Assembly (NCBI RefSeq): GCF_000420705.1
Contig: NZ_ATVL01000008.1
Coordinates: forward strand, 639,718-703,717
Direction: 5' to 3'
From: Hymenobacter norwichensis DSM 15439
Lineage (GTDB): Bacteria; Bacteroidota; Bacteroidia; Cytophagales; Hymenobacteraceae
Length of the DNA stretch: 64,000 nt
The first letter of the stretch is position 1; every line of letters starts with the position of its first letter. The notes under the pieces are model-generated. The model had not been told where the DNA came from. It searched no databases and saw nothing but the letters and a program-made list of their open reading frames with translations. The position numbers and the translations under genes are program-made. Positions 7,827 through 41,734 of this stretch are shown piece after piece.

Positions 7827-10730
7827 ATGCGCCTAGCTGCCCATCTTGGCTTTTTCCTGTGGTTTGTTTTGTCAACCAGTGCCTTACAAGCTGCTGAGGT
7901 GCTACCACTGGCCGGTGAATGGCGCTGCCGCCTCGACCCGCAGGACGCGGGCGTGGCGGCCCGCTGGTTTACCACAACGCTGCCCGAAAAAGTAAGCCTG
8001 CCCGGCTCCCTCACCGACAACCACCTCGGCGACCCGGTATCGTTGCGTACCAAGTGGACGGCTACTATCTACGACAGCTCCTGGTTTTTCAACCCGCGTT
8101 TAGCCAAGTACCGCCAGCCCGACAACTTCAAAATTCCGTTCTGGCTGACGCCCAACACCTATTACGTGGGCCCGGCTTGGTACCAGAAAACGATTGACAT
8201 TCCGGCGAAATGGCGCGGCCAGCGGCTAGTGTTGTTTCTGGAACGCGCCCACTACGGCACCCGCGTGTGGGTGGACGACCAGGAGATAGGGCAGCAGATT
8301 TCCTTGGTAACGGCACACGAATACGACGTAACCGCCGCCTTATCGAGCGGCACGCACACGCTCACGGTGCGCGTTGATAACCGCCTGGAAATCCTGAACG
8401 TGGGGCCCGACTCACACAGCGTGTCCGACCACATTCAGGGCAACTGGAACGGGTTGATTGGTCGGTTGGAGTTGCAAGCGCATCCGCCGGTTTCACTGCT
8501 CGGCGTGCAGGTATACCCCGATGTAGCCCACCAATCGGCACGAGTTAAACTATCAATAAAAAACACCCTATCCAAAACTACAAAGGGCAGCGTACTGCTC
8601 ACTGCGCAGGCATTTAATACGGCCACGCCGCACCAGGTAGCGCCCATCAAGGCTCCGTTTAAGGCGCCCCCCGGCGAGACAACCGTGGAGTTGACTCTGC
8701 CTATGAGTACTGCGGTGCAGCTCTGGGACGAGTTTCACCCGGCGCTTTATCAGCTGACCGCCACGCTTCAATTGAAAAACGGCGCCACCAACCAGCAGCA
8801 GGTTGCCTTCGGCATGCGTGACATCAAAACCCAAGGCAACCGGCTGCTGGTAAACGGCCGGCCGGTGTTTTTGCGCGGTAACCTGCACAACGGCGAATTC
8901 CCGCTAACTGGCTACCCTGCCACCGACGTGCCCGCCTGGACTCGGGTGCTCACCGTGCTCAAAAATTATGGTTTCAACCACGTACGGTTTCATTCGTGGT
9001 GCCCACCCGAGGCAGCCTTTGTTGCGGCCGACCAGCTGGGCATTTACCTGCAACCCGAAGGCCCCAGCTGGCCTAACCACGGCACCTCGCTCGGCGACGG
9101 GCGCCCCATCGATAAGTTCATTTATGACGAAACCAACCGTATGGCCACCGCCTATGGCAACCATGCTTCCTACTGCTTGCTGGCAGCCGGCAATGAGCCG
9201 GCAGGCCGCAACCAAGCAAAATACTTGGCCGACTTCGTGAAATACTGGCAAGCCCGTGACACCCGCCGCCTCTACACTGGCGCTTCGGTAGCTATGAGCT
9301 GGCCGCTAGTACCCGAAAACGAATACATGATTAAATCCGGGGCGCGGGGCCTTCCCTGGACGAAAGAGCGCCCGAACAGCATGTTCGACTACCGCACCGC
9401 CATCGAGAAGTTCACTATGCCCTACGTGACGCACGAAATGGGCCAATGGTGCGTATTCCCCGATTTCAAGGAAATAAAACAGTACACCGGCGCGTACCGA
9501 GCCCGTAACCTGGAGCTGTTCCAGCAAGACCTCGCCGACCACGGCATGGCAGACCAAGCCGAAAGCTTCTTGCGGGCCTCGGGCCAATTGCAGGCGCTAT
9601 GCTACAAGAACGAAATTGAGGCCACACTCCGTACGCCTAACTTAGCAGGGTTTCAACTGCTGGGCTTGCAGGATTTTCCGGGCCAGGGCACGGCGCTGGT
9701 AGGCGTGCTGAACCCGTTTTTTCAAGAAAAAGGGTACGTAACGGCAGCACAATACCGGCGCTTTTGCCAGCCCACAGTGCCGTTGGCACGCCTGCCGAAA
9801 TTCGTGTTTACTAGCAACGAAACCTTTGAAGCCGCCGCCGAGCTGTACCACTACGGCCCGCAGGCACTACCCGCCACCGCACTAAGCTGGACAATTAAAA
9901 CGGCCACTGGTGCCACCATAGCGCAAGGCAGCTTTGCACCGGTAGCCGTACCTACGGGCACCAACACTCCCCTCGGCAACGTACGCCTCCCTCTGTCATC
10001 CATCAGCCAAGCCACGCGCCTGACCTTGGAAATAGCCCTACCTGGCACCGATATAGCCAACGACTGGCAGTTCTGGGTATACCCGGCCCGCCTCCCCGCT
10101 CTGCCCAAAAGCAATGTGTACGTGTGCACCAAACTCGACGAGCAAGCCCGGCAGGTACTGGCTAAAGGTGGATGCGTATTTTTGAATGCGGCGGGCCAGG
10201 TGGTAAAGGGTAAAGAAGTAGCCATGAATTTCACCCCCGTGTTCTGGAATACTTCGTGGTTTAAGATGCGCCCCCCCCACGTCACGGGGTTTGTGGCCGA
10301 CTCCGTGCACCCCGCCCTAGCTGATTTCCCTACCGAAACCCACAGCAACCTGCAGTGGTGGGAAATCGTGAATCAGGCGCAGGTGATGCACCTGGAGGAT
10401 TTCCCGGCCGGTTTTCGTCCCATTGTGCAGCCCATCGACACCTGGTTTCTCAACCGCCGCTTAGCCTTAATACTAGAAGCTCGTGTTGGGTCAGGCCGCT
10501 TACTGGTATCCAGCGCCAACCTTTCCGCCTCCGATGACGCCCAGCGCCCGGCCGCCCGGCAGCTGTATTACAGCTTGTTACGCTACGCGCAGTCGGCACA
10601 GTTCCGGCCGGCTACGGCAGTTGATTTCAACGTGGTGAAGGACTTGTTTGAGACACCTTCACGAGAACAATTCAGCACGTACACCAAAAACAGTCCGGAC
10701 GAGCTAAAGCCCCAGCAGATAAAGAAGTAA
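7827..10730 (+). CDS. GH2 family glycosidase, exported
   Basis: 967 aa. A signal peptide (MRLAAHLGFFLWFVLSTSAL, cleavage near QAA-EV) is followed by a jelly-roll sugar-binding domain with the GH2 phrases VWVDDQEIGQQ and NGLIGRLELQA, an Ig-like domain, and the TIM barrel from about residue 330. E457 in AAGNEPAGRNQ fits the acid/base and E537 in VTHEMGQW fits the nucleophile. HVRFHSWCPPEAAF is the usual GH2 barrel strand. A further roughly 300-residue C-terminal part carries no domain I recognise. It starts 16 nt after the GH35 stop and closes the run. GH2 covers beta-galactosidase, beta-glucuronidase and beta-mannosidase; the sequence alone does not decide which. A run of eight Cs lies inside the gene at 10271-10278, in frame. 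Confidence 0.85.
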   Translation: MRLAAHLGFFLWFVLSTSALQAAEVLPLAGEWRCRLDPQDAGVAARWFTTTLPEKVSLPGSLTDNHLGDPVSLRTKWTATIYDSSWFFNPRLAKYRQPDNFKIPFWLTPNTYYVGPAWYQKTIDIPAKWRGQRLVLFLERAHYGTRVWVDDQEIGQQISLVTAHEYDVTAALSSGTHTLTVRVDNRLEILNVGPDSHSVSDHIQGNWNGLIGRLELQAHPPVSLLGVQVYPDVAHQSARVKLSIKNTLSKTTKGSVLLTAQAFNTATPHQVAPIKAPFKAPPGETTVELTLPMSTAVQLWDEFHPALYQLTATLQLKNGATNQQQVAFGMRDIKTQGNRLLVNGRPVFLRGNLHNGEFPLTGYPATDVPAWTRVLTVLKNYGFNHVRFHSWCPPEAAFVAADQLGIYLQPEGPSWPNHGTSLGDGRPIDKFIYDETNRMATAYGNHASYCLLAAGNEPAGRNQAKYLADFVKYWQARDTRRLYTGASVAMSWPLVPENEYMIKSGARGLPWTKERPNSMFDYRTAIEKFTMPYVTHEMGQWCVFPDFKEIKQYTGAYRARNLELFQQDLADHGMADQAESFLRASGQLQALCYKNEIEATLRTPNLAGFQLLGLQDFPGQGTALVGVLNPFFQEKGYVTAAQYRRFCQPTVPLARLPKFVFTSNETFEAAAELYHYGPQALPATALSWTIKTATGATIAQGSFAPVAVPTGTNTPLGNVRLPLSSISQATRLTLEIALPGTDIANDWQFWVYPARLPALPKSNVYVCTKLDEQARQVLAKGGCVFLNAAGQVVKGKEVAMNFTPVFWNTSWFKMRPPHVTGFVADSVHPALADFPTETHSNLQWWEIVNQAQVMHLEDFPAGFRPIVQPIDTWFLNRRLALILEARVGSGRLLVSSANLSASDDAQRPAARQLYYSLLRYAQSAQFRPATAVDFNVVKDLFETPSREQFSTYTKNSPDELKPQQIKK

Positions 10731-14709: not shown

Positions 14710-14997
14710 ATGGCCTTAACTGCTTATAAACCTATTGATTGCGGCTTTCACGATTTACTGGAAGCCACTATTACGTTGCGCACATACACCCACTTGCAAT
14801 ACTTCACCGACCTTTGGGAGTTCACCACCGTTACCGGCCTGCTCAAAAACCTGGTTAGCGAGCGGGACGCGGTGGGCCTCGCCGAATACCTGGTTATCGA
14901 CACCGGCGAGCGTATTCGGCTCGACCGGGTGGTGAACGTGAACGGCACCTTTGCGCCGCCTTTTAGCCACTACCACGATTTCACCTGTGACTGCTGA
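14710..14997 (+). CDS. Rof-like Rho-binding antiterminator family protein
   Basis: 95 aa from ATG 14710 (MALTAYKPIDCGFHDLLEAT). The start Y-[KQ]-P-I-[DN]-C followed by D.LE matches E. coli Rof (YaeO; YQPINCDDYDNLE), and the C-terminal EYLVIDTGERIRLDRVVNV matches the Rof EYLVV...R.LRLDKI strand. Rof binds Rho and inhibits Rho-dependent termination. The tail FSHYHDFTCDC adds two cysteines not known from E. coli Rof. The gene sits directly behind an intrinsic terminator and overlaps the MarR gene, so it probably pairs with that regulator. Assignment rests on sequence pattern only; a related Sm-like/beta-barrel protein with another role is possible. Confidence 0.65.
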   Translation: MALTAYKPIDCGFHDLLEATITLRTYTHLQYFTDLWEFTTVTGLLKNLVSERDAVGLAEYLVIDTGERIRLDRVVNVNGTFAPPFSHYHDFTCDC

Positions 14998-15610
14998 TTC
15001 CGCCAGCCCGTTCGACCCCCACCGGCAAAACCATCCGCCAGACCTCGACCACAAGATTGTGGCCTCGCTCGAACGGCTGAGCGGCGTGTTTCGCCACTTG
15101 CTTTGGCAGGAAGCTACCCATAGCGGCCTGAGCCCGTTGCAATTGCAAGTGGTGGTGTTTCTGCGCTTTCACGCGCCAAGCCAGGGCACGGTGAGCAACC
15201 TAGCCCGCGAGTACCGGGTGAGCCGCGCCACCATCAGTGATGCGGTGAAAGCCCTGGCTCAAAAAGCGCTGGTCAGCCGCCACACCGACCCGGCCGATTT
15301 GCGAAGCCATTCGCTCCAGCTTACCCCCGCCGGCGAGCAGCTAGCCGACCAGAGCAGCCGCTTTGCCGCGCCACTTACCCCGCCTGTAGCTGCCCTACCC
15401 CCCCGCCAAAAGCTGAGCTTGTATTTGAGCTTGCTGACGATGCTGCACCAGTTGCAGCAGGCCGGTACCATTCCGGTGCAGCGCATGTGCTTTTCGTGCC
15501 GCCACTACGGGCGGCGGCCCGGTCAGCACTTCTGCCACCTGCTCAATATCCCGCTCGAAAGCCACGAACTCCGCATTGATTGCCCGGAGCACGACGCCGC
15601 GCTTTGGTAG
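14987..15610 (+). CDS. MarR-family regulator with C-terminal Cys4 tail
   Basis: 207 aa if the GTG at 14987 is used (overlap of 11 nt with the Rof-like gene); an ATG at 14951 would add 12 residues and a 47-nt overlap. The winged helix is clear: SPLQLQVVVFLRFHAP, REYRVSRATISDAVKAL for the recognition helix, and a wing at DPADLRSHSLQLTPAGEQLA. The last 35 residues contain CFSCRHY, HFCHLL and IDCPEH, four cysteines arranged as a possible metal or Fe-S site. I have seen the same CxxC...C...DCPEH tail pattern in other MarR-like proteins of unknown ligand. In this NO/heme island a redox or NO sensor is a reasonable inference. No operator was recognised. Confidence 0.8.
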   Translation: MTADSASPFDPHRQNHPPDLDHKIVASLERLSGVFRHLLWQEATHSGLSPLQLQVVVFLRFHAPSQGTVSNLAREYRVSRATISDAVKALAQKALVSRHTDPADLRSHSLQLTPAGEQLADQSSRFAAPLTPPVAALPPRQKLSLYLSLLTMLHQLQQAGTIPVQRMCFSCRHYGRRPGQHFCHLLNIPLESHELRIDCPEHDAALW

Positions 15611-15669
15611 CGCGGCATTTTTGCATTTACGCTTTCTGCGCCGTGGCTTTCTTGCTGCTGGCCTGGCTG

Positions 15670-17145
15670 TCAGCTTCCGCGCTGACGTAGCACGGCCCCT
15701 AGCTGCTCTACGCCGTGGGCCAGTTCAGTGGGCGTGAGGGCGGCGTAGCCCATGCGTACGGCGTTAGCGGCCGGCCCAGACAAGTAGTAGCGGCTACCGG
15801 GCGTAATCACCACTTTACGGCGCGCCAGCTCTTCGGTAACGCGCTCTAGGTCTATGTCTTCCCGAAAATTCACCCACAGGGCCATACCGCCAGCGGGCAG
15901 CACGAAATCCACGTAGTTGCCCGGCAGCCGGCGCAGGGCCTCCGCTAGTGCGTCGCGGCGGGTGTGGTACTCGGCGTGGGCGCGGCGGGTGTGCCGCTTG
16001 ATTTCACCTTCCTCAATCAGATCGGCCACGGCCTGCTCTAGCACGGTGTCACCTTGGCGGTCTATCAGCGCCCGTAGCCGACCCAAGGCCGTGATGAAGG
16101 CCGCCGGGCCGGTGACGTAGCCGATACGCAGGGCCGGCGCAATCAGCTTGGAAAGCGAGCTGATGTAGATAACCACGCCGTGCGGGTCGGCTGAGGCCAG
16201 CGGCAGCATGGGCTGGTAGTGGAAATGAAAGTCGTGGTCGTAGTCGTCTTCGATAATAGCCACGCCATAGCGGGCAGCCAGCGCTAGCAATTGCACCCGC
16301 CGCGCTGCCTTCAGCGTCACGGTGGTTGGGAACTGGTGATGCGGCGTCAGGTACAGGGCCCGCACAGTTTGGCGCTGGCATAGCATTTCCAGCTCGTCTA
16401 CGCACAAGCCTTCGGCATCGACTCCTACCGGGGCCAGCTCGGCCCCTAGCAGCCGAAAGGTTTGCCAGGCGGGCGGGTAGCCGGGGTTTTCCACGGCCAC
16501 CACGTCGCCGGGCTGGATGAGTAGGCGAGCGGTCAGGTACAGGGCCATTTGGGTGCCGCGCGTCAGGCAGATGCTGGCCGGGGTGGTGCTTAGGCCCCGG
16601 TCTTGGTTGAGCATGCGCGACAAGGCTTCGCGCAGGGGTAGGCTGCCCAGGGGGCTGTCGTAGCCCAGCTGGTTGCGGCGGCCGCGGCCCTGCATCACGC
16701 GGCGGTATGCGCTGGCCAGCGTGGCTACGGGCGCGAGTCGGGCATCGGGCGTGCCGTCGTTGAACACCAGGGCGCCGGGTATCACTGTGGGCAGCTGCTC
16801 TAACTCAAATGGGTCTTGCCACTGGAAGCCGGGGGCTGCTGCCGGGCCGTTGGCAGCGGGCGCGAAGGCCGTTGGGCTGGTCTCGGGCAGCCGGCTCGAT
16901 ACGAAGGTGCCGCGGGTAGTCTGCGACTCCAGCCAGCCTTGGGCCAGCAGCTCCTCATAAGCCAGCACCGCTGTCTTCCGATTCACGCCCAGCTGCTTGG
17001 CTAGCTCCCGCGTGCCGGGCAGGGCAGTACCAGGCTGGAGGCGGCCGCGGCGAATTTCGGCGGCAATTAGCTCGCTGATTTGCAAGTACACGGCGCGGCC
17101 CGCCGCGAAGGTTGGGTGAAAGTTGGTATCCCAGGCGCGCAACAT
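15670..17145 (-). CDS. MocR/PdxR-type regulator (GntR winged helix plus aminotransferase domain)
   Basis: 491 aa from ATG 17145 (MLRAWDTNFHPTFAAGRAVY); an upstream ATG at 17202 would add a leader without similarity. Residues about 15-80 form a GntR winged helix (AVYLQISELIAAEIRRGRLQ, ELAKQLGVNRKTAVLAYEEL). The rest is a fold-type I aminotransferase domain: GYDSPLGSLPLREALS, EDDYDHDFHF and SSLSKLIAPALRIGY with K333 as the PLP Schiff-base lysine. MocR proteins sense PLP-amino compounds. The gene is divergent from the cupin/DapA-like pair, which is therefore its likely target; a role as regulator of PLP synthesis (PdxR) is less likely as no pdxST is adjacent. Confidence 0.88.
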   Translation of the reverse strand: MLRAWDTNFHPTFAAGRAVYLQISELIAAEIRRGRLQPGTALPGTRELAKQLGVNRKTAVLAYEELLAQGWLESQTTRGTFVSSRLPETSPTAFAPAANGPAAAPGFQWQDPFELEQLPTVIPGALVFNDGTPDARLAPVATLASAYRRVMQGRGRRNQLGYDSPLGSLPLREALSRMLNQDRGLSTTPASICLTRGTQMALYLTARLLIQPGDVVAVENPGYPPAWQTFRLLGAELAPVGVDAEGLCVDELEMLCQRQTVRALYLTPHHQFPTTVTLKAARRVQLLALAARYGVAIIEDDYDHDFHFHYQPMLPLASADPHGVVIYISSLSKLIAPALRIGYVTGPAAFITALGRLRALIDRQGDTVLEQAVADLIEEGEIKRHTRRAHAEYHTRRDALAEALRRLPGNYVDFVLPAGGMALWVNFREDIDLERVTEELARRKVVITPGSRYYLSGPAANAVRMGYAALTPTELAHGVEQLGAVLRQRGS

Positions 17146-30401: not shown

Positions 30402-30989
30402 TTGGAAATTACAAGAGAGTTTTCGGAGGAGGCGTTTTCCGCTCGTTCGGGTGAGGAATACCTGTTTTTCAAGACGCTTTTCAAGCAACATGCCGCTGGC
30501 TTACTGCGGTTGGCCATGAGCCAACTGAAATCACAGGCAGAGGCCGAAGAAGTGGTGCAGGAATGCTTTCTTAAATTCTGGGAACAGCGCCGAGAGCTAG
30601 GCAATGATTTAACCGCGGCCAAAGGCTACTTATACACATCGGCGTACCGCACTATTCTAAACCAGTTGCGGCGGCAGCATTACTGGGTGTATCAAGAATG
30701 CACGGAAAGCACGCTCACCGAACTAGAGCCGCAAAGCACCGAACTGGAGTACGAGGAGTTGGAGCACTTATACAAGGTTGCTTTGGAACAGCTTCCACCC
30801 AAGCGCCGGCAGGTGTTTCTGATGAGCCGGCAGCAGGGCCTTTCGTATGCCACCATTGCCGCAGAGTTAGGCGTCTCGGTAAAAGCGGTGGAAGAACATA
30901 TGCGCCTTGCACTGAAGTTTCTACGCGTGTATTTTCGGGCACACGGAATTACGTTGAGTCTGCTATTTCTGCTGGCAGCCGTAAATTAA
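30402..30989 (+). CDS. ECF-type RNA polymerase sigma factor
   Basis: 195 aa. Sigma region 2 is YLFFKTLFKQHAAGLLRLAM...EEVVQECFLKFWEQR, and region 4 is LEQLPPKRRQVFLMSRQQGL followed by the helix-turn-helix SYATIAAELGVSVKAVEEHM. The size and the E-V-V-Q-E-C-F motif are those of Bacteroidota ECF sigma factors paired with FecR. The start is a TTG at 30402 (LEITREFSEEAF); no in-frame ATG lies near enough upstream, and the next ATG would remove region 2. It is divergent from fecR-susC-susD and is the probable direct activator of that operon. The tail GITLSLLFLLAAVN is unusually hydrophobic. Confidence 0.92.
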   Translation: MEITREFSEEAFSARSGEEYLFFKTLFKQHAAGLLRLAMSQLKSQAEAEEVVQECFLKFWEQRRELGNDLTAAKGYLYTSAYRTILNQLRRQHYWVYQECTESTLTELEPQSTELEYEELEHLYKVALEQLPPKRRQVFLMSRQQGLSYATIAAELGVSVKAVEEHMRLALKFLRVYFRAHGITLSLLFLLAAVN

Positions 30990-31683
30990 TCCGCAGGCAG
31001 TAGCTGCAAAATACTACTCCAGAGCTAAGCTCCTGCTATTGTAGTCGAACTGCTAGTTCGTACGGCGCCAAGAATATCGGTACCGGCATGCGCATCTGCG
31101 CAACGGTTGCATTATTGCTACTCAATAGTCCATCCTACTTTTTCTAAGTTGCCCGAAGAAGTGTTTTTGAAACATTTCTCGGGCGAATTGCTCTGCTTAC
31201 TTTATACAGCCGATTACTGCTACTGCAAGCCCTGCAATAAATCCAATATATGTACGCTTTAATACAACAAATGTATTGTATTAGGGGCTGTATTGCCTTT
31301 TTGAGGCTGTTTCGTGACTGCTTTACAAGGCAAATAGCACGACATCTATTGTAACAATATGCGCATTTCTGCGCTTCACAACCCAATACCTTTGGGCCAC
31401 TGCCACCACTTGGCGGCATCCTTCCAGCACTCTTATTACTTGACTGCGCTAGGCGCTTTCAACCGGTGGTAGATTTGCCTGTAGCGACAGTTCTACTGCC
31501 AGTTGAAAGCACGGCCACAGGATGCCAAACAGTGCGGATGACAGCTTTACTCCTACCTCTTCAAGCGAATTACACCTGTCACTTTGCCGGCAGTCCTAGG
31601 CTGGATAGTAACAGTTTCAGCAATCATCTTTTGCGCAATCGTTTTCCTTTCCACTCCATTCTTTAAAACCCACTTGTAAGCCT
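30990..31683 (+). promoter_or_regulatory. Intergenic region upstream of the T9SS xylanase
   Basis: 694 nt with no supported gene; the open frames here have no family features and cross the regulatory element. It contains the two-armed element at 31264-31375, a perfect TAnnTTTG box at 31387-31394, and then about 289 nt of pyrimidine-rich leader before the ATG at 31684. No riboswitch fold was recognised in the leader. Confidence 0.6.
31264..31394 (+). promoter_or_regulatory. Two-armed activator-type promoter element, copy A (GH10/T9SS gene)
   Basis: Left arm ACAACAAATGTATTGTA (31264-31280). The right arm (31340-31375) begins CGACATCTATTGTAACAATA. A perfect -7 box TACCTTTG lies at 31387-31394. 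Copy B upstream of the second GH10 gene matches the left arm at 15 of 17 and the right arm at 31 of 36 positions, with left-to-right spacing of 77 versus 76 nt and right-arm-to-box distance of 46 nt in both. No TTG-type -33 box is at the expected place, as expected for an activator-dependent promoter. Probable binding site of the HTCS at 34400-38536 (inference). Confidence 0.75.
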
Positions 31684-34308
31684 ATGAAAAACTGTAGACC
31701 CATTTTATTAGGAATTGGGTTAGGGCTGTGCAGCTTCGCACTGCATGCTCAAGACCTTCCTATTCCGCAACAAGCCGAATCGGGCACCGTGGGTGCCGAT
31801 TGGAACGTGCTCGACGATGCGGGCGTGCGCTACGTTTCTGTTACGCCAACCAGCACCATTAATTCGCAAAATCCGGGTACACCAGGGCGGATTATCACTT
31901 ACTCGGTTACGTTTCCGGCGGCGGGCTCCTATAGCCTCTACGCTCGGGTACGGGTGGGACCCGCCGGTGCCAACGATGACAGTTTCTATTACGGCAACGG
32001 CTTCGGCACGAAATCACCCACCAACGACAACGACTGGATTACGGTCAATGGCCTCGGCGTGGCGGGTTTTACTGCGCCGACTGACATAGTAACCGGGGCA
32101 GGAACGGCAACAACGGGAGTCTGGAAGTGGATTAATATCTCGCGGCTTAACCTGGTGAACAGCGGCAGCGAATCACCCATCCGGTTTACAGTAAATGCCA
32201 ATGCTCTTACGCAGACCATCCAAATTGGGGCTCGTGAAGACGGCCTTGATATCGATCAGCTTGCTTTCGGTACTTCAAACACCACGTTTACCGTCGAGAA
32301 CTTAAACTTAGGGCAAGCGGGTATCACACCGCCGCCGCCCCCACCCTACACCCCCACCGGGCCACCGTTGGCAACTGGTAAGTCCAAGTATTTCGGGGGC
32401 ATCTGGAGTCCGGCGCAGCTGACCAACTTCACGAACTACTGGAACATGGTGGTGCCGAGCAACGCGGGCAAGTGGGGCTCCGTGGAAGGCACTCGCGACG
32501 TATTCAACTGGACCAATTTGGATGCAGCCTATCGGTTGGCAAAGGATAATGGGTTTCCATTTCGCTTTCATGTACTGATTTGGGGCAACCAACAGCCAAC
32601 CTGGATTGAAACCTTGCCGCCAGCCGAGCAACTGGAAGAAATCAAAGAATGGTTTGCGGCCGTAGCCCAGCGCTACCCGGATATCGATATGCTGGAAGTG
32701 GTGAACGAACCGCTGCACGACCCGCCCGGAACTCCCGGCAACGGCGGTGGCAACTACGTTAACGCCTTGGGCGGCAACGGCGCAACCGGCTGGGATTGGG
32801 TAATCAACTCGTTTAAGCTGGCCCGGGAGTATTTCCCCAATACCCGGCTCATGCTCAACGACTACAGCGTGGAAAACTCGGTGGCCAATGCCACTAGCTA
32901 CCGTAACATCATTACGCTGCTGCAACAGCGGCAACTCATTGATGCCATTGGTATTCAGGGGCACTCGTTTTCTACCCGGCCTACCTCGTCGGCGGTCCTC
33001 AGAAGCAGCCTAGACGTGCTAGCAGCTACCGGGTTGCCGCTCTACATTACAGAGCTCGACATCAATGGCGTAGAAGAAGACGTTCAACTCTCGGAGTACC
33101 AGCGGGTTTTCCCTATTTTCTGGGAGCACCCAGCCGTGAAAGGCGTATCGCACTTCGGCTGGCTGCCAGGGGCTGATGCAGAAGCATACCTAGCGTACTC
33201 CAACGGGGCTGAGCGGCCGGCGCTGGTGTGGTTGAAAGACTACGTGCGCAATACCATACTGCCTTGCAACGTGAGTACCACCGCCCGGATTACCAATGCG
33301 CTTACGTGCCTGGGTAACAACGGCATTATCAACCTGACGGCGCAGGGCGGCGGCACGGCCACGTATACCTACAGCTGGACCGGGCCGAATAACTTCACGG
33401 CCACGACAGAAGATTTGGTGGGCGTAGTGCCCGGCGTGTACACCGTAACGGTAACGGCACCTAACAGCAACTGTAGCACGACCAGCACTTACACCGTTGG
33501 CAGCGACGCCGACACGCAGGCCCCTACTATTCTGGCCGCCGGCTTTATCGTCGGGCTGGAAGCCAATGGCACGCGCACCATTGAGGCCGCCGACGTGGAC
33601 TATGGCAGCACCGACAACTGCGGTATTGCCTCCATGACCCTCGACAAAACCCGCTTCACCTGTGCCAACATCGGCCCAAACCAAGTAACCATTACTGTGC
33701 GCGACAACGCGGGCAATGTGGCTACCCAGACCGTGACGGTAATAGTAGTAGACAACACGGCGCCAACGATTATGGCAGCTGGTTTTGCCGTAACATTGAA
33801 TAACGGCACGCGCACCATTGAGGTCAACGACGTGGACTATGGCAGCACCGACAACTGCGGCATTGCTTCCATGAGCATCAGCCCGCGGACGTTCACCTGC
33901 GCCAACATCGGTCCCAACCCGGTAACCATTACTGTGCGCGATAATGCGGGCAACGTGGCCACCCAAACCGTGACCGTAATGGTAAACGGCGATGCCAGCT
34001 GCCCCGCAGCGCGTAGCCTGAACAATAGCTATGCAGGCAGCGCCCAAGCTGCCGAGTTGCAGGCCTATCCGAACCCCGCCACCGACCAGGCCACGCTGAA
34101 CTTCCGGACCGCCGCTGCCGGTAAAGCGCAGGTACGGGTATACAACTCATTGGGCCGCTTGGTAGCTACCCTCTACGACGGGCCAGTTATGGCTGGCGGA
34201 CAGTATCAGGCCACTCTCGACAGCCACAAGCTAGTAGCAGGCGTGTACACCTGCCAGCTACTCGCACCCGGCACGGCCGTTACCACCCGGCTTATCATTA
34301 CCAAGTAA
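31684..34308 (+). CDS. Multidomain GH10 endo-beta-1,4-xylanase secreted by T9SS
   Basis: 874 aa. The signal peptide ends near ALHAQ. Residues about 25-207 form a CBM6-like beta-sandwich (QAESGTVGADWNVL, AAGSYSLYARVRVG, DGLDIDQLAFG). After a proline linker (PPPPPPYTP) the GH10 barrel covers about 225-525, with acid/base E342 in VVNEPLHD and nucleophile E457 in YITELDING. Then follow a PKD/Ig-like domain (about 530-610), two near-identical HYR-type repeats (about 612-775) and a T9SS sorting domain (about 800-874, QAYPNPATDQATLNF to TTRLIITK). It should be released or anchored at the surface by the type IX system to cut xylan chains outside the cell. It is the only enzyme here with that tail. 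A strong terminator follows. Confidence 0.93.
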   Translation: MKNCRPILLGIGLGLCSFALHAQDLPIPQQAESGTVGADWNVLDDAGVRYVSVTPTSTINSQNPGTPGRIITYSVTFPAAGSYSLYARVRVGPAGANDDSFYYGNGFGTKSPTNDNDWITVNGLGVAGFTAPTDIVTGAGTATTGVWKWINISRLNLVNSGSESPIRFTVNANALTQTIQIGAREDGLDIDQLAFGTSNTTFTVENLNLGQAGITPPPPPPYTPTGPPLATGKSKYFGGIWSPAQLTNFTNYWNMVVPSNAGKWGSVEGTRDVFNWTNLDAAYRLAKDNGFPFRFHVLIWGNQQPTWIETLPPAEQLEEIKEWFAAVAQRYPDIDMLEVVNEPLHDPPGTPGNGGGNYVNALGGNGATGWDWVINSFKLAREYFPNTRLMLNDYSVENSVANATSYRNIITLLQQRQLIDAIGIQGHSFSTRPTSSAVLRSSLDVLAATGLPLYITELDINGVEEDVQLSEYQRVFPIFWEHPAVKGVSHFGWLPGADAEAYLAYSNGAERPALVWLKDYVRNTILPCNVSTTARITNALTCLGNNGIINLTAQGGGTATYTYSWTGPNNFTATTEDLVGVVPGVYTVTVTAPNSNCSTTSTYTVGSDADTQAPTILAAGFIVGLEANGTRTIEAADVDYGSTDNCGIASMTLDKTRFTCANIGPNQVTITVRDNAGNVATQTVTVIVVDNTAPTIMAAGFAVTLNNGTRTIEVNDVDYGSTDNCGIASMSISPRTFTCANIGPNPVTITVRDNAGNVATQTVTVMVNGDASCPAARSLNNSYAGSAQAAELQAYPNPATDQATLNFRTAAAGKAQVRVYNSLGRLVATLYDGPVMAGGQYQATLDSHKLVAGVYTCQLLAPGTAVTTRLIITK
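33526..33987 (+). repeat. Intragenic tandem duplication encoding two HYR-type repeats
   Basis: Two units of roughly 235 nt, the first starting near 33526 and the second near 33760, encode nearly the same domain (both contain NGTRTIE, DVDYGSTDNCGIASM, FTCANIGPN and VTITVRDNAGNVATQTVTV). Long runs are identical at the DNA level, so the duplication is recent or kept uniform by conversion. Such repeats can expand or contract by recombination. Confidence 0.8.
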
Positions 34309-34335
34309 ACGGCGAAATATATACTGCCTGTAAAA

Positions 34336-34374
34336 AAGCAGCCCCAGCCTGATACTAGGCTGGGGCTGCTTTTA
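34336..34374. terminator. Bidirectional intrinsic terminator between GH10 and HTCS
   Basis: AAGCAGCCCCAGCCT (34336-34350) pairs perfectly with AGGCTGGGGCTGCTT (34357-34371) around a six-base loop, with A-tract before and T-tract after. It works for both strands and separates the convergent xylanase and HTCS genes. Confidence 0.9.
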
Positions 34375-34399
34375 TTATATAATAACCGAGGTGGCTGCC

Positions 34400-37300
34400 T
34401 CACTGCTTCTTGCCTTTGCGATAATCGGAAGGCAGGATGTTGAACTTGGCCTTGAACGATTTTGTGAAGTAGTGCGGTGTGGCAAAACCTGCCTGATAGG
34501 CCACTTCCGAAATAGTTAAGTCACTTTCCTGCAAGAGCACCGCCGCCCGGTCTAGCTTGAACGAGCGGATGAACTCCACTGGCGGCATGCCTGTCAACTC
34601 CAGTATCTTGTTGTACATCGAGCCCCGGCTCATACCAAAATGCTCACTTAGCTCTTCCACCGAGAAGTTTGTGTTCTTAAGGTTTTTTTCAATGTAGAGC
34701 ACTACATTGTTGAGAAACCGCTCACTACTCGACTCTATTTCCACGGAGCTTGGCACCACTTGCAACTGCTTGGTATAGGTGGTTTTCAGCGTGCGGTTCA
34801 GTTCCAGCAAATTCCTGATTCTGACATGCAGAATATCGAAGTTGAAGGGCTTGGACAGATAGTCGTTGGCTCCGGATTCCAAGCCTTTGAGGTGCTCTTC
34901 CTCGCGCGTGAGCCCCGTGAGCAGAATGATGGGAATATGGCTGGTGCGCTTGTCGGATTTTAGCTTCCGGCTGAGTGCAATACCATCCATATAGGGCATA
35001 GTAATGTCGCTCACAATAAGGTCGGGATGGCACGAAAGAGCTTTATACCAGCCATCCTTGCCATTAAGCACATCGGTAATTTTGTAATGGTCCTTCAGGT
35101 TGTCTTTCAGATAATAGCGGAAATCGTCGTCGTCTTCCACAATTAGCAGGTGCGGCAATTCCTCACCTTTTTGCTTTTTCGGCGGCTTGGGCGGCTTCTT
35201 GCGGTCCGGCACGGGGGCCAGTGTTTCGGCAACGGCCGGGCTGCCGTTTTCTGCAAGCGGCACATCCGACTCTAGCGGCAGCAGCACCGTAAATGTGGCA
35301 CCTTTGCCCAGCTCACTTTCCACCGCAATAGAGCCGCCGTGTAGCTCCACAAACTCCTTGGTAATAGACAAGCCGATGCCGTTGCTTTGGTTAAGCACCG
35401 TAGAAAGCTCATGGCCCTGAAAGAACCGCTCGAAAATCAATTCCTGCTGGCTGGCGTCGATGCCACTGCCGGTATCCGCTACCCGGAGGCAGATGGTTTT
35501 TTGGGAAGCATTAGGTGTGGCGGCAGAAGCGAAGAGTTCCACACGCACCCGCCCGCCTTCGGGAGTAAATTTGAAAGCGTTGGACAGCAGATTAACCAGA
35601 ATTCGTTCTACCTTATCATAGTCGAAGCGCACGTATAGCTTCTCCGATGTGAGGTGCAACGACAGCTCGATTTTCTTGATTTCGGCCAGATCCTGAAAGG
35701 AGGAAGAAACTTCCTGCACAAAACCGGTAAGCTCCCCCGCCGACAAACTCAAACGCAACTCGTTTTCCTCCATTTTCCGCGAGTCCAGCAGCTGATTAAC
35801 CAGGTGCAGGAGCCGGTGGGCATTGCGCCGGATAACCTGTAGCTGCCCCGCGCTCTGCGGATCTTTCTGCTGGGCGAGCAGCTTGGCCGTAGGTGCCAGA
35901 ATCAGGGATATAGGCGTGCGAAGCTCGTGGCTTAGGTTGGTTAGAAACTTGATTTTCAGCAAGTCAAGCTTACGCACCCGCTCCACTTCTTCGCGTTCCT
36001 GCTGCTGCTCGAACTCCTGTTTCAGCTTCCTGATTCCGCGGTAGCGGCTATAAAGCAGAGCCGCGCCGACCAGGCCCACATACAAGGCGTAGGCGTAGAT
36101 GGTTTTCCAGAATGGCGGCTGAATGACAATCTTGACGTGGGTGCCTGTGGTATTCCAGATACCGTCGTTGTTGCTGGCTTTCACCACGAAATCGTACTCG
36201 CCGGGGTCCAGGTTGGTGTAGTACGCGCTGGTGGTGGTTCCTACGTAGTTCCAATCCTTATCAAAGCCTACCAGTTTGTAGGCGTAGCGGTTTTTCTGGG
36301 GCAGCGTGTAGTTTAAGGCGGCATATGCCAGGGAGAAGTTCTGCTTGTAGTTCAAACGGATTTCCTTGGCCACGGTGATGTGCTGCTGCAAGGGCGACTG
36401 TTTCCCCACCACAACGGGCTCGTTATCGACCCGCAGGCCGGTGAGTACCACTTGGGGGACATTCCGGTTGACTTTCAGACGCAGTGGCGAGAAGTAGTTG
36501 AAGCCTTCGATGCCGCCGAAGAATAAGGTACCGCTGGTTGCTTTAAGGCCCGAATTGTTGAGGAAGGCTTTGTCCTGCAAGCCGTTTTCCCGCGAGTAGT
36601 TTGTGAATTGGCCTTGCTTAACATCCAGCCGGCTGATTCCCCGGTTGGTGCTTACCCAAATAGCGCCGGCATCGTCTTCCAGAATCTTGTGCACAAACCC
36701 GTCCAGCAGCTTTTCACGGCTCGAATAGACGGAAAACTTACTTGTGCGAGCATCAAACCGATACAAGCCGTTGCCGTTTGTACCGAGCCACATATTGCCC
36801 CGATGGTCTTTCGCAATAGTGGTGATGTAGTCGATGTTGAATCCGGTTTGGCTTGCTTTGTACGTAGTAAAGTCCCGACTACCAGGGTGATACACGCCAA
36901 CCCCGCCCCCACTGGAGCCAATCCAGATATTACCTGCCAGGTCTTCCTCAATGCCGCGGATGTAGTTGTTGGTAGGCAGTTGCCGGTCGAGCGAATCTTT
37001 GGGTGCGTTTATAAACCTGGTGATTACGCGGGTTTGCGGGTCGTACATATTCACTCCGCCTCCGTTCGTGCCAATCCAGACATTACCGGCGCGGTCTTCT
37101 TTCAGAATCCAGATTTGATTGCTACTCAGTTGTTGTTTTCCCGGACCTTGCAGCAGCTGTCGGTAGCTACCGGTTTTGGTGTTGAGCACGAACAGCCCGT
37201 GGTCGAAGGTGCCAATCCACAACTGCTCATGCCTATCAAGGAGCAGGCTCAGAATGGGTAGCCCAGCCAGGTTGACACGTTTTTGGCTTTTGAGGTCGAG

Positions 37301-38536
37301 GTGGCTAAATAAGCCTGTCTTCACGTGATATACGTTCAGGCCACCGCCGTCTGTGCCCACGAATACGTCGCCGTTGCGCTTTTCCGCAAACGACGTAACC
37401 AGAGGCGCATTCAGCCCGAAAGGGTCCAGCTCGTTGTTGCGTCGGCCATTGAACAAGGTTAAGTTCTGGTCGTATTTGCTTACCCCGCCCTTATACGTTC
37501 CCACCCAATGGATACCTTGCGAGTCAATTAAGATGCTGCGCACGGATTTGCTGTTCAGGCTATACGGGTCGCGGCTGTCGTGCACATGGCGCGTTGCCCG
37601 CCCCGATTTCACGTCAATAATATCGAGTCCGCCTTCTGTGCCCACCCACAGCGTGCCGTCGGGCCCCGCCGCCAGCGTGAAAATAAAGTTGCTGCCCAGC
37701 GTGTGCGGGTCGTCGTACCTGAACTTGAAGGTATCGAAGCGGCGCTCATCGGCGCTCAGCCGGTTCAAGCCATTGGTGGTCCCTACCCACAAGCGGCCGT
37801 TCAGGTCTTGGGTGATGGTATTGATGGTGTCGCCGATAAGGCCCTCTTGGCCCGGCGCAAACGGCTCTAGCACCTGAGTTGCTGAATTGTAGCGATACAA
37901 GCCACTCTCCGTGCCGAGCCAGATGCGGTGCTGACTATCGGCATACATGCATTGCGGTACTATGGGCCGAGGCGGGCGGGCTGTCGGGGCAAAGGGTACG
38001 GAAATGCTTCTGCCTGTCTTTGGGTTCAACTGCCTGACTTCGCTAGCGGTTACTATCCAGAGGTTGCCAAGCGCATCACTATCCACCTCTTTGATGTACC
38101 TACTAATTTGCTGGCCCGGTGCATTGTATCCGGTATATGCCACAAAGGCATTATGGGCTCGGTCGTAAGAATATAGCCCGCGGCCCATGGTGCCCACCCA
38201 CAACCGACCAGCTTGGTCTTCGTGCAAAGTTGAAATATCAACGGCTTGGAAAGACGCCGTTTTATGCGTGCCTAATAGGTATAAGCTGAACTGGTAGCCA
38301 TCGTATTTTCGTAAGCCCTCATCCGAGGCAATCCAGAGAAAACCATATCGGTCTTTAAGAATAGCATAAACAGTATTGGAAGCTAAGCCGTCTTTGGATG
38401 ACAATGAAGTGAACTTGACATCTGGTGGCTGCGCCAACACAGAATGGCTGGCTATTAGCAGGCCAAGCAGCAACAACACACCGGATAAAGCCCGAAGTGT
38501 AGCTGCGTAACCAGTGCGTTGAAAGGTATCACTCAT
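34400..38536 (-). CDS. Hybrid two-component system regulator (HTCS)
   Basis: 1378 aa in one chain: N-terminal signal/anchor, about fourteen two-component-propeller blades (residues about 40-680, repeated W[IV]G[TS]..G pattern such as GRLWVGTTNGLNRL), a Y_Y_Y domain (YKLVGFDKDWNYVGTTTSAY), one membrane helix near 805-830, a histidine kinase with H870 in NLSHELRTP and LVNLLSNAFKFTPEGG, a receiver with D1177 in LIVSDITMPYMDG, and an AraC helix-turn-helix (FSVEELSEHFGMSRGSMYNK, TISEVAYQAGFATPHYFTKS). HTCS proteins bind an oligosaccharide in the periplasm and activate glycan-degradation genes. Its position between two GH10 genes with a shared upstream element makes it the probable xylan regulator. 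All catalytic residues are present. Confidence 0.96.
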   Translation of the reverse strand: MSDTFQRTGYAATLRALSGVLLLLGLLIASHSVLAQPPDVKFTSLSSKDGLASNTVYAILKDRYGFLWIASDEGLRKYDGYQFSLYLLGTHKTASFQAVDISTLHEDQAGRLWVGTMGRGLYSYDRAHNAFVAYTGYNAPGQQISRYIKEVDSDALGNLWIVTASEVRQLNPKTGRSISVPFAPTARPPRPIVPQCMYADSQHRIWLGTESGLYRYNSATQVLEPFAPGQEGLIGDTINTITQDLNGRLWVGTTNGLNRLSADERRFDTFKFRYDDPHTLGSNFIFTLAAGPDGTLWVGTEGGLDIIDVKSGRATRHVHDSRDPYSLNSKSVRSILIDSQGIHWVGTYKGGVSKYDQNLTLFNGRRNNELDPFGLNAPLVTSFAEKRNGDVFVGTDGGGLNVYHVKTGLFSHLDLKSQKRVNLAGLPILSLLLDRHEQLWIGTFDHGLFVLNTKTGSYRQLLQGPGKQQLSSNQIWILKEDRAGNVWIGTNGGGVNMYDPQTRVITRFINAPKDSLDRQLPTNNYIRGIEEDLAGNIWIGSSGGGVGVYHPGSRDFTTYKASQTGFNIDYITTIAKDHRGNMWLGTNGNGLYRFDARTSKFSVYSSREKLLDGFVHKILEDDAGAIWVSTNRGISRLDVKQGQFTNYSRENGLQDKAFLNNSGLKATSGTLFFGGIEGFNYFSPLRLKVNRNVPQVVLTGLRVDNEPVVVGKQSPLQQHITVAKEIRLNYKQNFSLAYAALNYTLPQKNRYAYKLVGFDKDWNYVGTTTSAYYTNLDPGEYDFVVKASNNDGIWNTTGTHVKIVIQPPFWKTIYAYALYVGLVGAALLYSRYRGIRKLKQEFEQQQEREEVERVRKLDLLKIKFLTNLSHELRTPISLILAPTAKLLAQQKDPQSAGQLQVIRRNAHRLLHLVNQLLDSRKMEENELRLSLSAGELTGFVQEVSSSFQDLAEIKKIELSLHLTSEKLYVRFDYDKVERILVNLLSNAFKFTPEGGRVRVELFASAATPNASQKTICLRVADTGSGIDASQQELIFERFFQGHELSTVLNQSNGIGLSITKEFVELHGGSIAVESELGKGATFTVLLPLESDVPLAENGSPAVAETLAPVPDRKKPPKPPKKQKGEELPHLLIVEDDDDFRYYLKDNLKDHYKITDVLNGKDGWYKALSCHPDLIVSDITMPYMDGIALSRKLKSDKRTSHIPIILLTGLTREEEHLKGLESGANDYLSKPFNFDILHVRIRNLLELNRTLKTTYTKQLQVVPSSVEIESSSERFLNNVVLYIEKNLKNTNFSVEELSEHFGMSRGSMYNKILELTGMPPVEFIRSFKLDRAAVLLQESDLTISEVAYQAGFATPHYFTKSFKAKFNILPSDYRKGKKQ

Positions 38537-39435
38537 GGCAAGAATTAGAATTTTGCATTGCCTCTTGTCTGACTTTTACGCGCCTTATCATTTGATAATC
38601 AATTAGAAATACTGTTGCGGAGTATTCACGCCAAATAGAAGTCTTGGCGGCAAGCAACTTATAGCAGCCCCAGATAAAGCTACAAAACACAAGTAAGCAT
38701 GTTGCTCGCTTCATCTGGTTAGCCGTCGATTATACAGCCTACTTGCTTATTAGCAGGCATATCACCAAAAGTATAGCGAAAAGTACAATCATTTGGACGG
38801 TAACAACCCAAATAGCTTGGTGCAAGAGGATAAAAGCTGATCAGTAGAGGACAGCATATGGCTGTACTTGCAAGTAGCCTGTTGCCAATTCAGTACTCTT
38901 AATCAAACATAGCCATGAATACTGCACGAGCTAGTGAATTGCTCACCTTGCACACAGCACAATATCCATGTTCAAGTAGATAAATCAATGCTGTTACAGC
39001 ACTTCACTAGAAGCCAACGGATGTTCACAGGAGCACAACAGATGTATTGCAGTAAAAGCATTATGGCCCATAGCAGCGGTTTTCGCGGCATAGCAGGCAG
39101 CAGGCTTTCCGACATCTGTTGTAATAATATGTGCATTCCTGCGCCTTACTGTTTGATACATTTGAACAAGTGTAGTTGTAAGTTAAAAACGCTACTCCGA
39201 ACACTGAATCAAGCAGTAAAACCAGACCGGCTGATCTAAGACAAGGTGTGGGAACCTACTGGGGAGGGCCAGTTGGGAAGGTTTTATTGCTTGATACCAG
39301 TCTTCACCGAGCATCGTTCATTGTGGCTAGGCAGCCGCAAATTGAGGGCGTAGAGTGTAAGCAACTCCATTCGCCCAGTACCAACTCCCTACACCCACGC
39401 TTCCTACACTGATTTCCGGCTTATCTTCTATTCCC
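38537..39435. promoter_or_regulatory. Long divergent regulatory region between HTCS and second GH10 gene
   Basis: 899 nt with no supported gene; a 101-codon open frame at 38934-39239 has no recognisable features and runs across the promoter element. On the minus strand TACTTTTG (38773-38766) is an exact -7 box facing the HTCS gene, giving a leader of about 220 nt. On the plus strand it contains element copy B (39035-39145) and box TACATTTG (39157-39164), followed by about 270 nt of leader. Confidence 0.6.
39035..39164 (+). promoter_or_regulatory. Two-armed activator-type promoter element, copy B (second GH10 gene)
   Basis: Left arm ACAACAGATGTATTGCA (39035-39051). The right arm (39110-39145) begins CGACATCTGTTGTAATAATA. 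A perfect -7 box TACATTTG lies at 39157-39164. In this copy ACAACAGATGT (39035-39045) and ACATCTGTTGT (39112-39122) are exact inverted repeats 77 nt apart, about seven helical turns. Distances match copy A (see 31264). No -33 TTG is present at the standard distance. Confidence 0.75.
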
Positions 39436-40557
39436 TTGAAAATACAATCCACTAAGTTACTGATTGGCCTTGCGTTGGCTGGCATAGCATCTGGCTTCGG
39501 ACGGAAAACAGAACCGACGTTGAAGGCCGCGTTTAAGAAAGATTTTTACGTAGGTGCCGCCCTCAACTACCGCCAAATTAGCGGCCAAGATGCTAAGGCT
39601 ACCGCGCTTGTCAAGCAGCAATTCAACACCATCAGCCCGGAGAATCTGCTGAAATGGGGGCCCGTGCACCCGCAACCCGACAAGTACAACTTCAAGCCCG
39701 CCGACGACTATGTGGCCTTTGGGCAGCAAAACAAGATGTTCATTGTTGGGCACACTCTGATGTGGCACCAGCAGACCCCGAAATGGGTATTTGAAGACGC
39801 AGCCGGCCAAACAGTGAGCCGTGAAGTGCTACTTAAGCGCCTAGAAGACCACATTAACACAGTGGTTGGCCGCTACAAAGGCAAGATTGGGGGTTGGGAC
39901 GTGCTGAATGAAGCCATCGACGACCAGCAAGGCGACTTACGCAAAACTAAATGGCTGGAAATTCTGGGGGAAGATTTTGCCGCTAAAGCCTTCGAGTACG
40001 CCCACAAAGCCGACCCTAAGGCCGAACTTTATTACAACGACTACAGCCTCTACCGTCCCGAAAAGCGGGAAGGCGTGATCAAGCTGGTAAAAAGCCTACA
40101 AGCCAAAGGCATCAAAGTAGACGCCATTGGTATGCAGGGCCACTACGGCCTGACCCGCCCGAGTATTGAGCAGGTAGAAGCCAGCATTGTGGCTTTCTCG
40201 AAGCTGGGCGTACACGTCAATTTCACGGAGCTTGACATTGACGTGCTACCGAATCCGAGCCGGCGCCAGGGCGCCGACATTGCTGAAACCTTCGGGGCCG
40301 ATACCAAATACAACGTGTACACCGCGGGCCTGCCCGACTCGGTGCAGCAAAAACTGACGAAACGCTACGCCGACTTGTTTGCGCTGTTTCATAAGCACCG
40401 CGACGTTATTGACCGCATTACTCTGTGGGGCGTAACCGACACGGATTCCTGGCTCAACGACTGGCCCATCAGAGGCCGCACGAGCTACCCCTTGCTCTTC
40501 GGCCGCGACTACTTGCCGAAACCAGCTTTGCAAGCAGTAGTGCAAACTGCTAAGTAG
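39436..40557 (+). CDS. GH10 endo-beta-1,4-xylanase, single domain
   Basis: 373 aa, a GH10 barrel with little else. Acid/base E159 is in DVLNEAIDD and nucleophile E265 in NFTELDIDV; other landmarks are ENLLKWGPVHPQP, GHTLMWHQQTPKWVFE and LWGVTDTDSWLNDWPIRGR. The N-terminus (MKIQSTKLLIGLALAGIASG if TTG is read as Met) is a signal peptide, so the enzyme is probably periplasmic and would trim imported xylo-oligosaccharides. The start codon is TTG at 39436; no nearby in-frame ATG exists. No T9SS tail, unlike the GH10 at 31684. It is the first gene of the plus-strand xylan block and is preceded by element copy B. Confidence 0.94.
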   Translation: MKIQSTKLLIGLALAGIASGFGRKTEPTLKAAFKKDFYVGAALNYRQISGQDAKATALVKQQFNTISPENLLKWGPVHPQPDKYNFKPADDYVAFGQQNKMFIVGHTLMWHQQTPKWVFEDAAGQTVSREVLLKRLEDHINTVVGRYKGKIGGWDVLNEAIDDQQGDLRKTKWLEILGEDFAAKAFEYAHKADPKAELYYNDYSLYRPEKREGVIKLVKSLQAKGIKVDAIGMQGHYGLTRPSIEQVEASIVAFSKLGVHVNFTELDIDVLPNPSRRQGADIAETFGADTKYNVYTAGLPDSVQQKLTKRYADLFALFHKHRDVIDRITLWGVTDTDSWLNDWPIRGRTSYPLLFGRDYLPKPALQAVVQTAK

Positions 40558-40864: not shown

Positions 40865-41734
40865 ATGAATAAAGGTAAATTCTTGATTCTGGCCCTTTGG
40901 CTGGTTCCTGCATTGGGGATAGGGCAAACGGTGCCGCTACAAAGCTTTCCGGTGTCGACGGTGCGCCTGCTGGACAGCCCCTTCCGCGTGGCCCAGCAAA
41001 CGGACCTTGCGTATTTAATGGCCCTCAACCCCGACCGGCTGCTAGCGCCTTATTTGGCTGCGGCGGGTTTGCCACCCAAGGCTGAGCGCTACGGCAACTG
41101 GGAAAATACGGGCTTGGATGGCCACATGGGCGGGCACTATCTTTCGGCCCTAGCCTACATGTATGCCGCCACCGGCAACGAGCAGGTGCAGCAGCGCCTT
41201 ACTTACCTAATCGACCAATTGGAAGCCTGCCAGCAGAAAAGTGGCAACGGCTACCTGGGCGGCGTGCCCGGCGGCCTGGCCATGTGGCAGGAGGTGAAGG
41301 CTGGCAACATCAAGGCCAACAGCTTCGGACTAAACCAAAAGTGGGTACCACTCTACAACCTGCACAAAACCTACGCCGGCCTGCGTGATGCCTACGTGGT
41401 GGCTGGCAACGCGAAAGCCCGCGGCATGCTCATCAAGCTCACCGATTGGTTTCTGGACCTGACGGCCAACCTTATCGATGCGCAATTGCAGGACATGATG
41501 CGCAGTGAGCACGGCGGCCTGAATGAAATATTTGCCGACGTAGCCGACATGACCGGCGAGCGTAAATACCTGACGCTGGCCCAGCGCTTTTCGCATCAAG
41601 CGGTGCTAAAGCTCTTGCTAGCTGGCCAAGACGCACTCAACGGCATGCACGCCAACACCCAAATTCCGAAGGTTATCGGCTTCAAGCGGGTGGCCGAGGC
41701 CGGCGGCGTGTATGATGTGCGCCTGTTGCAGTAA
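40865..41734 (+). pseudogene. Truncated GH127-like (DUF1680) protein, N-terminal remnant
   Basis: 289 codons with a signal peptide (ending near GIGQ). The sequence follows GH127 beta-L-arabinofuranosidase family proteins closely from LLDSPFRVAQQTDLAYLMAL through GNWENTGLDGHMGGHYLSAL, KWVPLYNLHKTYAGLRDAY and EHGGLNEIFADVADMTGERK to NTQIPKVIGFKRVAEA, then leaves the family after about residue 275 (GGVYDVRLLQ, stop). Full-length members have roughly 620-800 residues. In the characterised B. longum enzyme HypBA1 the acid/base glutamate and the zinc-binding cysteine nucleophile lie after this point, so the remnant should be inactive. No trace of the missing part was seen before the GH43 gene 83 nt downstream, so a deletion is likely. 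It may still bind sugar. Confidence 0.8.

Follow-up and report, generated by a model that had tools for sequence, protein, structure and literature searches.

HTCS proteins control many polysaccharide loci of Bacteroidota, and to our knowledge their operators have mostly been predicted and seldom dissected. In the AraC system of E. coli, a direct-repeat dimer site overlapping the −35 region is accompanied by a distal site that mediates repression, possibly with looping between the two. For Bacteroides thetaiotaomicron, motifs were predicted for 16 of 36 HTCSs, all of them direct repeats with a mean spacing of 21 bp, and the motifs of SusR, a regulator whose DNA-binding domain is described as lacking significant similarity to known ones, were reported to consist of boxes repeated in the same orientation at a distance of 67 or 77 bp (Ravcheev et al. 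2013, PMC3878776). In the receiver domain, a motif named SHIP has been linked to the control of DNA binding (PMC11253607).

The window analysed here is a 64,000-nt stretch of the genome of Hymenobacter norwichensis DSM 15439, in which two GH10 xylanase genes, lying on either side of an HTCS gene, are each preceded by a copy (A or B) of the same two-armed element. The features referred to below are as follows.

31244..31253, + strand: half-site 1 of copy A, distal, CAATATATGT; absent from the preliminary description; CAAYNNATGT in 9/9 copies (located with that pattern)
31265..31274, + strand: half-site 2 of copy A, CAACAAATGT; direct repeat 21 bp downstream of half-site 1, corresponding to the left arm first described
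31342..31351, − strand: inner right half-site of copy A, reverse complement CAATAGATGT; model R2 match 31243-31402, E=2e-19
31363..31372, − strand: putative outer right half-site of copy A; weak, 21 bp beyond the inner one, near the −33 region
31387..31394, + strand: −7 box of copy A, TACCTTTG
31684..34308, + strand: GH10a, GH10 xylanase with SprB repeat and Por secretion tail, downstream of copy A (Pfam)
34400..38536, − strand: HTCS with Reg_prop, Y_Y_Y, HisKA, HATPase, REC with SHIP motif and AraC-type HTH (Pfam; SHIP read in the translation)
39015..39024, + strand: half-site 1 of copy B, CAACGGATGT
39036..39045, + strand: half-site 2 of copy B, CAACAGATGT; corresponding to the left arm first described
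39112..39121, − strand: inner right half-site of copy B, reverse complement CAACAGATGT; model R2 match 39013-39166, E=5.8e-14
39133..39142, − strand: putative outer right half-site of copy B; weak
39157..39164, + strand: −7 box of copy B, TACATTTG
39436..40557, + strand: GH10b, GH10 xylanase, downstream of copy B (Pfam)

Two Copies of One Element

Measured from half-site 1 to the −7 box, copy A occupies 31244-31394 and copy B 39015-39164, the conserved span reaching from about 97 nt upstream of the core to the TACCTTTG-like −7 box. The similarity reported in the preliminary description was reproduced: the left arms (31264-31280 and 39035-39051) are identical at 15 of 17 positions and the right arms (31341-31376 and 39111-39146) at 31 of 36, the distance from arm start to arm start is 77 nt in copy A and 76 nt in copy B, TAnnTTTG lies 46 nt from the start of the right arm in both, and copy B carries an exact 11-bp inverted repeat, ACAACAGATGT (39035-39045) being the reverse complement of ACATCTGTTGT (39112-39122). 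The HTCS gene does sit between both xylanases with a complete Pfam domain set; it adjoins copy B directly, and copy A stands before the next gene, GH10a.

Comparison with chance was made at several levels. The best ungapped 36-mer match between the 600-nt upstream regions of both xylanase genes has 31 identical positions; over 200 resampled pairs (first-order Markov chain), the corresponding value averaged 21.7 and never exceeded 25. With up to three mismatches, the 21-nt core occurs at two places in the 6.0-Mb genome and a reversed control pattern at none. Shorter pieces are less telling on their own: the 12-mer ACATCTRTTGTA from the right arm is unremarkable (43 occurrences in the window at up to three mismatches, 44.1 expected), and the 15-mer of the left arm occurs five times in the window against 1.62 expected, a count reached by 1 of 100 shuffles. 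Model R2, a profile built from seven other Hymenobacter promoters with the window left out, recovered both copies with the E-values given above; its next matches in the window were the A and B sites on the opposite strand (E 0.026 and 0.035), as a convergent arrangement would give, followed by one at E=3.

A TAnnTTTG −7 box is present in 9/9 copies known from the genus, 46 nt after the start of the core. As first noted, TTG is absent at −33 from copies A and B; within the 30 nt before the box copy A has none and copy B one, 1 nt before the box. With the spacer range of 17-23 nt that is used for the −33 element, no TTG was found in any of the nine copies, and three of them have one at 15 nt. 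TAnnTTTG is the Bacteroidota sigma-A −7 consensus as quoted in PMC7366714, where a −33 motif is also stated not to have been identified in Flavobacterium johnsoniae, so that the absence of a −33 TTTG here is weak evidence. The 5′ leaders implied by both promoters would be long, about 265-285 nt (31395-31683 and 39165-39435), if the listed starts are right (that of GH10b is TTG).

Two observations concern the neighbouring genes. In the segment 24110-30989, a second susCD pair (its SusC with an STN domain) is accompanied by a gene for a FecR anti-sigma factor and, divergently oriented at 30402-30989, by one for an ECF sigma factor; the segment is probably a PUL under ECF control that directly adjoins the HTCS-controlled one. 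On the other side, a GH127 gene of 289 aa (40865-41734) covers positions 2-242 of the 376 in the catalytic profile, the gene at the corresponding place in H. tibetensis encoding about 787 aa; judged by this length, it is probably a truncated remnant.

Distribution among Relatives

The GH10 gene of the window has its nearest relatives in Hymenobacter, and exact or near copies of the core are present in further members of the genus. Profile R1, a sequence-only profile from eight aligned copies, was used with stricter filters to search 120 Hymenobacter genomes, and gave strong matches (E 1.7e-23 or better) in eight of them, two in H. norwichensis and one in each other, and one additional weak match (E 1e-4) in genome G049. 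The same 8/120 genomes encode an HTCS orthologue, 66-100% identical (in genome G064 as two pieces, 79% and 59%); in the other 112, the best full-length match was 34% and the best partial match 40% among the best five candidates per genome. At E 0.01 the element was found in 8/8 genus genomes with the orthologue and in 0/112 without it. Part of this co-occurrence follows from linkage: in all seven relatives (7/7) the element directly adjoins the HTCS gene and lies before susCD, between the two divergently transcribed units.

The xylanase itself is a poor predictor. In a set of 36 GH10b loci (34 of 80 relatives' loci, L117 on an H. volaticus plasmid and L118 of H. tibetensis), the element occurs at 4/4 loci with an HTCS orthologue in the fetched stretch and at 0/32 without one, a count that an HTCS gene farther than the 10-kb flank would escape. 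As its four species are among the eight above, the only new information in this count is that presence of the element is not tied to the xylanase; the idea of a general mark of GH10b genes was rejected, 32/36 loci being without it. A looser core scan (up to four mismatches) of 80 GH10b loci returned L032, L033 and L052, the last with four mismatches and on the other strand. The annotated loci of H. volaticus and H. tibetensis came from a plasmid search.

Beyond the genus, a search of 390 genomes of the order returned three Hymenobacter already known and 11 weak matches of E 2.5e-4 to 0.008, where about four matches are expected at E 0.01, E-values are rough and the best seven candidates per genome were considered. 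A sensitive search of the eight genomes at E 10 yielded the nine strong copies, sites in genome G049 and in H. tibetensis, and eight others (E 0.2 to 3.7) that were taken as chance. The G049 site (E=1e-4) stands before a GH43-CBM6 gene, which on its sequence is a possible extra regulon member. At this site (L161 ~8453, G049:C24) the right arm is diverged, and TACCTTTA is displaced downstream from its usual position by about one helical turn. The H. tibetensis site is a weak copy (L118:594-704) before a LacI-type gene, with E 0.0018 in the locus set and 0.015 in the genome, a borderline value given that E=0.015 counts one genome and eight were searched.

The regulator shows a corresponding pattern: in six orthologues, the split H. 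volaticus protein left out, the HTCS DNA-binding domain is 91-96% identical and the periplasmic part 58-78%, as would be expected if the site is conserved while sensing diverges. The H. volaticus orthologue (L117:3062-7197) is annotated as two genes, a sensor propeller and a kinase-receiver-HTH protein, either through a frameshift or as a real division. Position, co-occurrence, DNA-binding domain identity and the 21-bp repeat form discussed below, from which binding is inferred, give good support to the earlier proposal that the HTCS has its site here. On this comparative evidence, the HTCS whose gene separates the xylanases very probably has its operator-promoter in this element.

Architecture of the Arms

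The nine copies were compared part by part. Mean pairwise identity is 97% for the −7 box, 82% for the right arm and 64% for the left pair of half-sites, compared with 41% for the linker, 40% for the spacer and 35% for both the upstream and the downstream flank. A CAAYNNATGT half-site lies before the core in all nine copies, its own conservation, higher than that of the left-arm half-site 21 bp downstream, being inflated by the use of a pattern to find it. The fixed geometry claimed at first holds for the 77/76 nt and 46 nt of copies A and B; the spacing is not rigid, half-site 1 preceding the core by 96-98 nt across the nine copies.

When a matrix of the inner right half-site was run over 760 left-hand placements, the top two (z 7.4 and 6.9, offsets −2 and +19) were half-site 1 and, on the same strand and 21 bp downstream of it, a second half-site. 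Half-site 2 is clear in copies A and B and in H. telluris; in the remaining six of the nine copies it is degenerate. On the right side, the putative outer half-site ranked sixth (z 3.9) of 940 placements with the half-site-1 matrix and eighth (z 3.0) of 940 with a combined matrix, and fell outside the top eight of 940 with the inner-right matrix; TGCGC, overlapping its end, is invariant. The arm centres are 97 bp (copy B) or 98 bp (copy A) apart, with the arms in opposite orientation.

These results alter the reading in the preliminary description, which saw two half-sites about seven helical turns apart. What it took for the left arm is the second member of a tandem pair spaced by 21 bp, and what it took for the right arm contains a strong half-site in inverted orientation, perhaps followed after 21 bp by a weak one. 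A large dimer or looping, regarded there as a requirement, is possible but not required. Because the published Bacteroides HTCS motifs have the form of direct repeats with a spacing of about 21 bp, a dimer site in each arm is more likely than a single half-site. By this reading of the alignment the left arm would form one tandem dimer site, faced by a second that the right arm probably provides.

History of the Locus

H. telluris offers the closest comparison of gene order. GH10a and the HTCS gene are collinear with it (31666-38478, 81%), window positions 38959-39144 with copy B match H. telluris 9007-9194 (68%), and the GH10b region, 39201-40555, matches H. telluris 14891-16243, which leaves one junction.

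39145..39200, no strand: junction at which about 5.7 kb with the susCD of H. telluris is missing; flanks match H. telluris on both sides

A simple loss of susCD had to be revised, as an orthologous susCD is present on another contig: the SusC there (G000:C9:51813-54644) is 97% identical to that of H. telluris, and the pair (L223:2679-7848) matches the H. telluris pair in DNA at 92% over 5,170 bp and stands behind other genes. No copy of the element was found upstream of this relocated susCD. Its left flank matches H. telluris contig C47 and not the HTCS locus of that species, and the HTCS protein is only 83% identical to its H. telluris counterpart, compared with the 92% of susCD DNA; by appearance, the relocated susCD looks like a transferred cassette. 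Since susCD stands elsewhere in the H. norwichensis genome, copy B, judged from these alignments, is the former susCD promoter, now before GH10b.

Copy A is 93% identical over 55 nt to the susCD promoter of H. telluris, and it has 9/10 linker positions in common with that promoter, compared with 3/10 for copy B; its upstream flank agrees with H. telluris at 28% over 60 nt. A BLAST search of eight genomes (E 1e-4) with the region around copy A reported elements in three of them (H. telluris, G049 and G061) but did not report copy B. Because of the match over 55 nt and the difference in the linker, copy A looks like a grafted promoter allele. In H. telluris no element was found before GH10a, which is 93% identical and lies beside HTCS, and three other GH10a orthologues (77-78%) have none; in all four, the best core within 1500 nt upstream has six or seven mismatches. 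Control of GH10a conserved across species was accordingly rejected, the four orthologues (77-93%) having no core within five mismatches in those 1500 nt, and it would be peculiar to H. norwichensis. The earlier statement that the two copies reflect selection on the sites and not a recent duplication therefore stands for the arms, which are kept while the flanks are not, and is qualified for copy A by its resemblance to a promoter graft.

Proposed Mode of Action and Alternatives

It is very likely that each copy acts as operator and promoter of the xylan HTCS (34400-38536), with a dimer on each arm activating the downstream gene. Briefly, the periplasmic sensor would detect xylan oligosaccharides, whereupon the phosphorylated response-regulator part with its AraC-type HTH would bind as dimers to the CAAYNNATGT repeats spaced by 21 bp. 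The proximal dimer on the right arm, beside the place of the missing −33 element, would recruit RNA polymerase to the −7 box; activation from a site by the −33 region is termed class II-type, which the proximal site most likely serves. The distal dimer would sit on the left pair, 97-98 bp upstream from centre to centre and in opposite orientation, and may help by cooperative contact or bridging, possibly via a loop. In H. norwichensis the target of copy B would be GH10b and that of copy A GH10a, susCD being elsewhere, and in the relatives the element would serve the susCD genes that it precedes. The model builds on sequence, conservation, orientation and HTCS co-occurrence, to which binding, phosphorylation, activation, a xylan signal and looping are added as proposed steps. 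A wider picture, in which convergent tandem-dimer operators about nine helical turns apart hold a looped or bridged complex of two membrane-anchored regulators and form a portable operator-promoter cassette, which as susCD moves away is retained, joined anew or transferred to new CAZyme genes, is offered tentatively and is doubtful as a whole.

A rather improbable alternative is a division of labour in which the right arm alone would be the activator site of the HTCS and the left pair a separate operator for autoregulation of the divergent HTCS gene, conserved through the common intergenic region. The left pair does lie on the HTCS side in 7/7 relatives, and the diverged G049 site before the GH43 gene consists, by eye, of a right arm without a left pair. 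Copy A, however, keeps its left pair at the same distance (97 nt) with no divergent HTCS gene alongside, its upstream neighbour being the ECF sigma gene (30402-30989) on the + strand.

An activating HTCS on both arms is also to be weighed against binding of the arms by another regulator (SusR-like, LacI-type or a global sugar regulator), with the HTCS as a mere neighbour. The 67 or 77 bp between SusR repeats (PMC3878776) come near the 76-77 nt of the arms, and a LacI-type regulator gene comes after HTCS in H. tibetensis; yet the inverted orientation of the arms disfavours the SusR form, whose repeats are direct, none of the 112 genomes without the HTCS gave a match at E 0.01, and the 21-bp spacing fits an HTCS, which makes this reading improbable. 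Plain duplication of one promoter within the genome, with arms not under selection, would account for the likeness of A to B and could draw on the 93% identity of A to the H. telluris promoter over 55 nt, but is very improbable given that the same blocks, and not the spacer and flanks, are kept in seven other species. In the least credible reading the arms would be terminal repeats, those of a small mobile element, or part of an invertible promoter, as might be suggested by the 11-bp repeats of copy B, exactly inverted and about 77 bp apart, and by the presence of two copies in one genome; this was rejected on the constant orientation to the −7 box in 9/9 copies and the presence of the core (up to three mismatches) at only two genome places, to which come a conserved block that takes in the −7 box outside the arms and an unchanged promoter position in seven relatives.

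Comparison with Known Systems

HTCS direct-repeat operators are already known as a kind. Among the open-licence papers surveyed by title and abstract opening, none on HTCS operators in Hymenobacter or on convergent HTCS sites was found; the proposed convergent double site, its co-occurrence with one Hymenobacter HTCS and its place before xylanases did not appear among them either. The element provides a precise, testable candidate operator, at a set distance from the −7 box and with eight species supplying natural variants. H. norwichensis provides a genome with this promoter before two xylanases instead of susCD, which suggests that PULs may be rewired when genes are shifted across a regulatory site that itself stays conserved.

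Another Hymenobacter HTCS orthogroup (12 loci) likewise shows conservation immediately before a TAnnTTTG-like box. Judged by eye in one alignment, the block there holds C-rich repeats about 21 bp apart, is the only one evident and has unrelated letters. The two conserved boxes of the xylanase element resemble SusR-like motifs, in which the spacing is 67 or 77 bp, but differ from them in being inverted and in having an HTCS as neighbour. The arrangement recalls the AraC operators of E. coli in its putative proximal direct-repeat dimer site, its distal site and the possible looping, the regulator being a membrane hybrid kinase here. It comes closest to the HTCS motifs of B. thetaiotaomicron as presented in the motif descriptions of PMC3878776, with an AraC-type HTH and direct repeats of about 21 bp before susCD or CAZyme operons near the regulator, a likeness that concerns the repeat form only, the motif letters being uncompared. 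Whereas those descriptions give a direct repeat of two sites, the Hymenobacter element probably has two such pairs facing each other, 97-98 bp apart, and, unlike what is described there, its proximal arm starts 46 nt before the −7 box.
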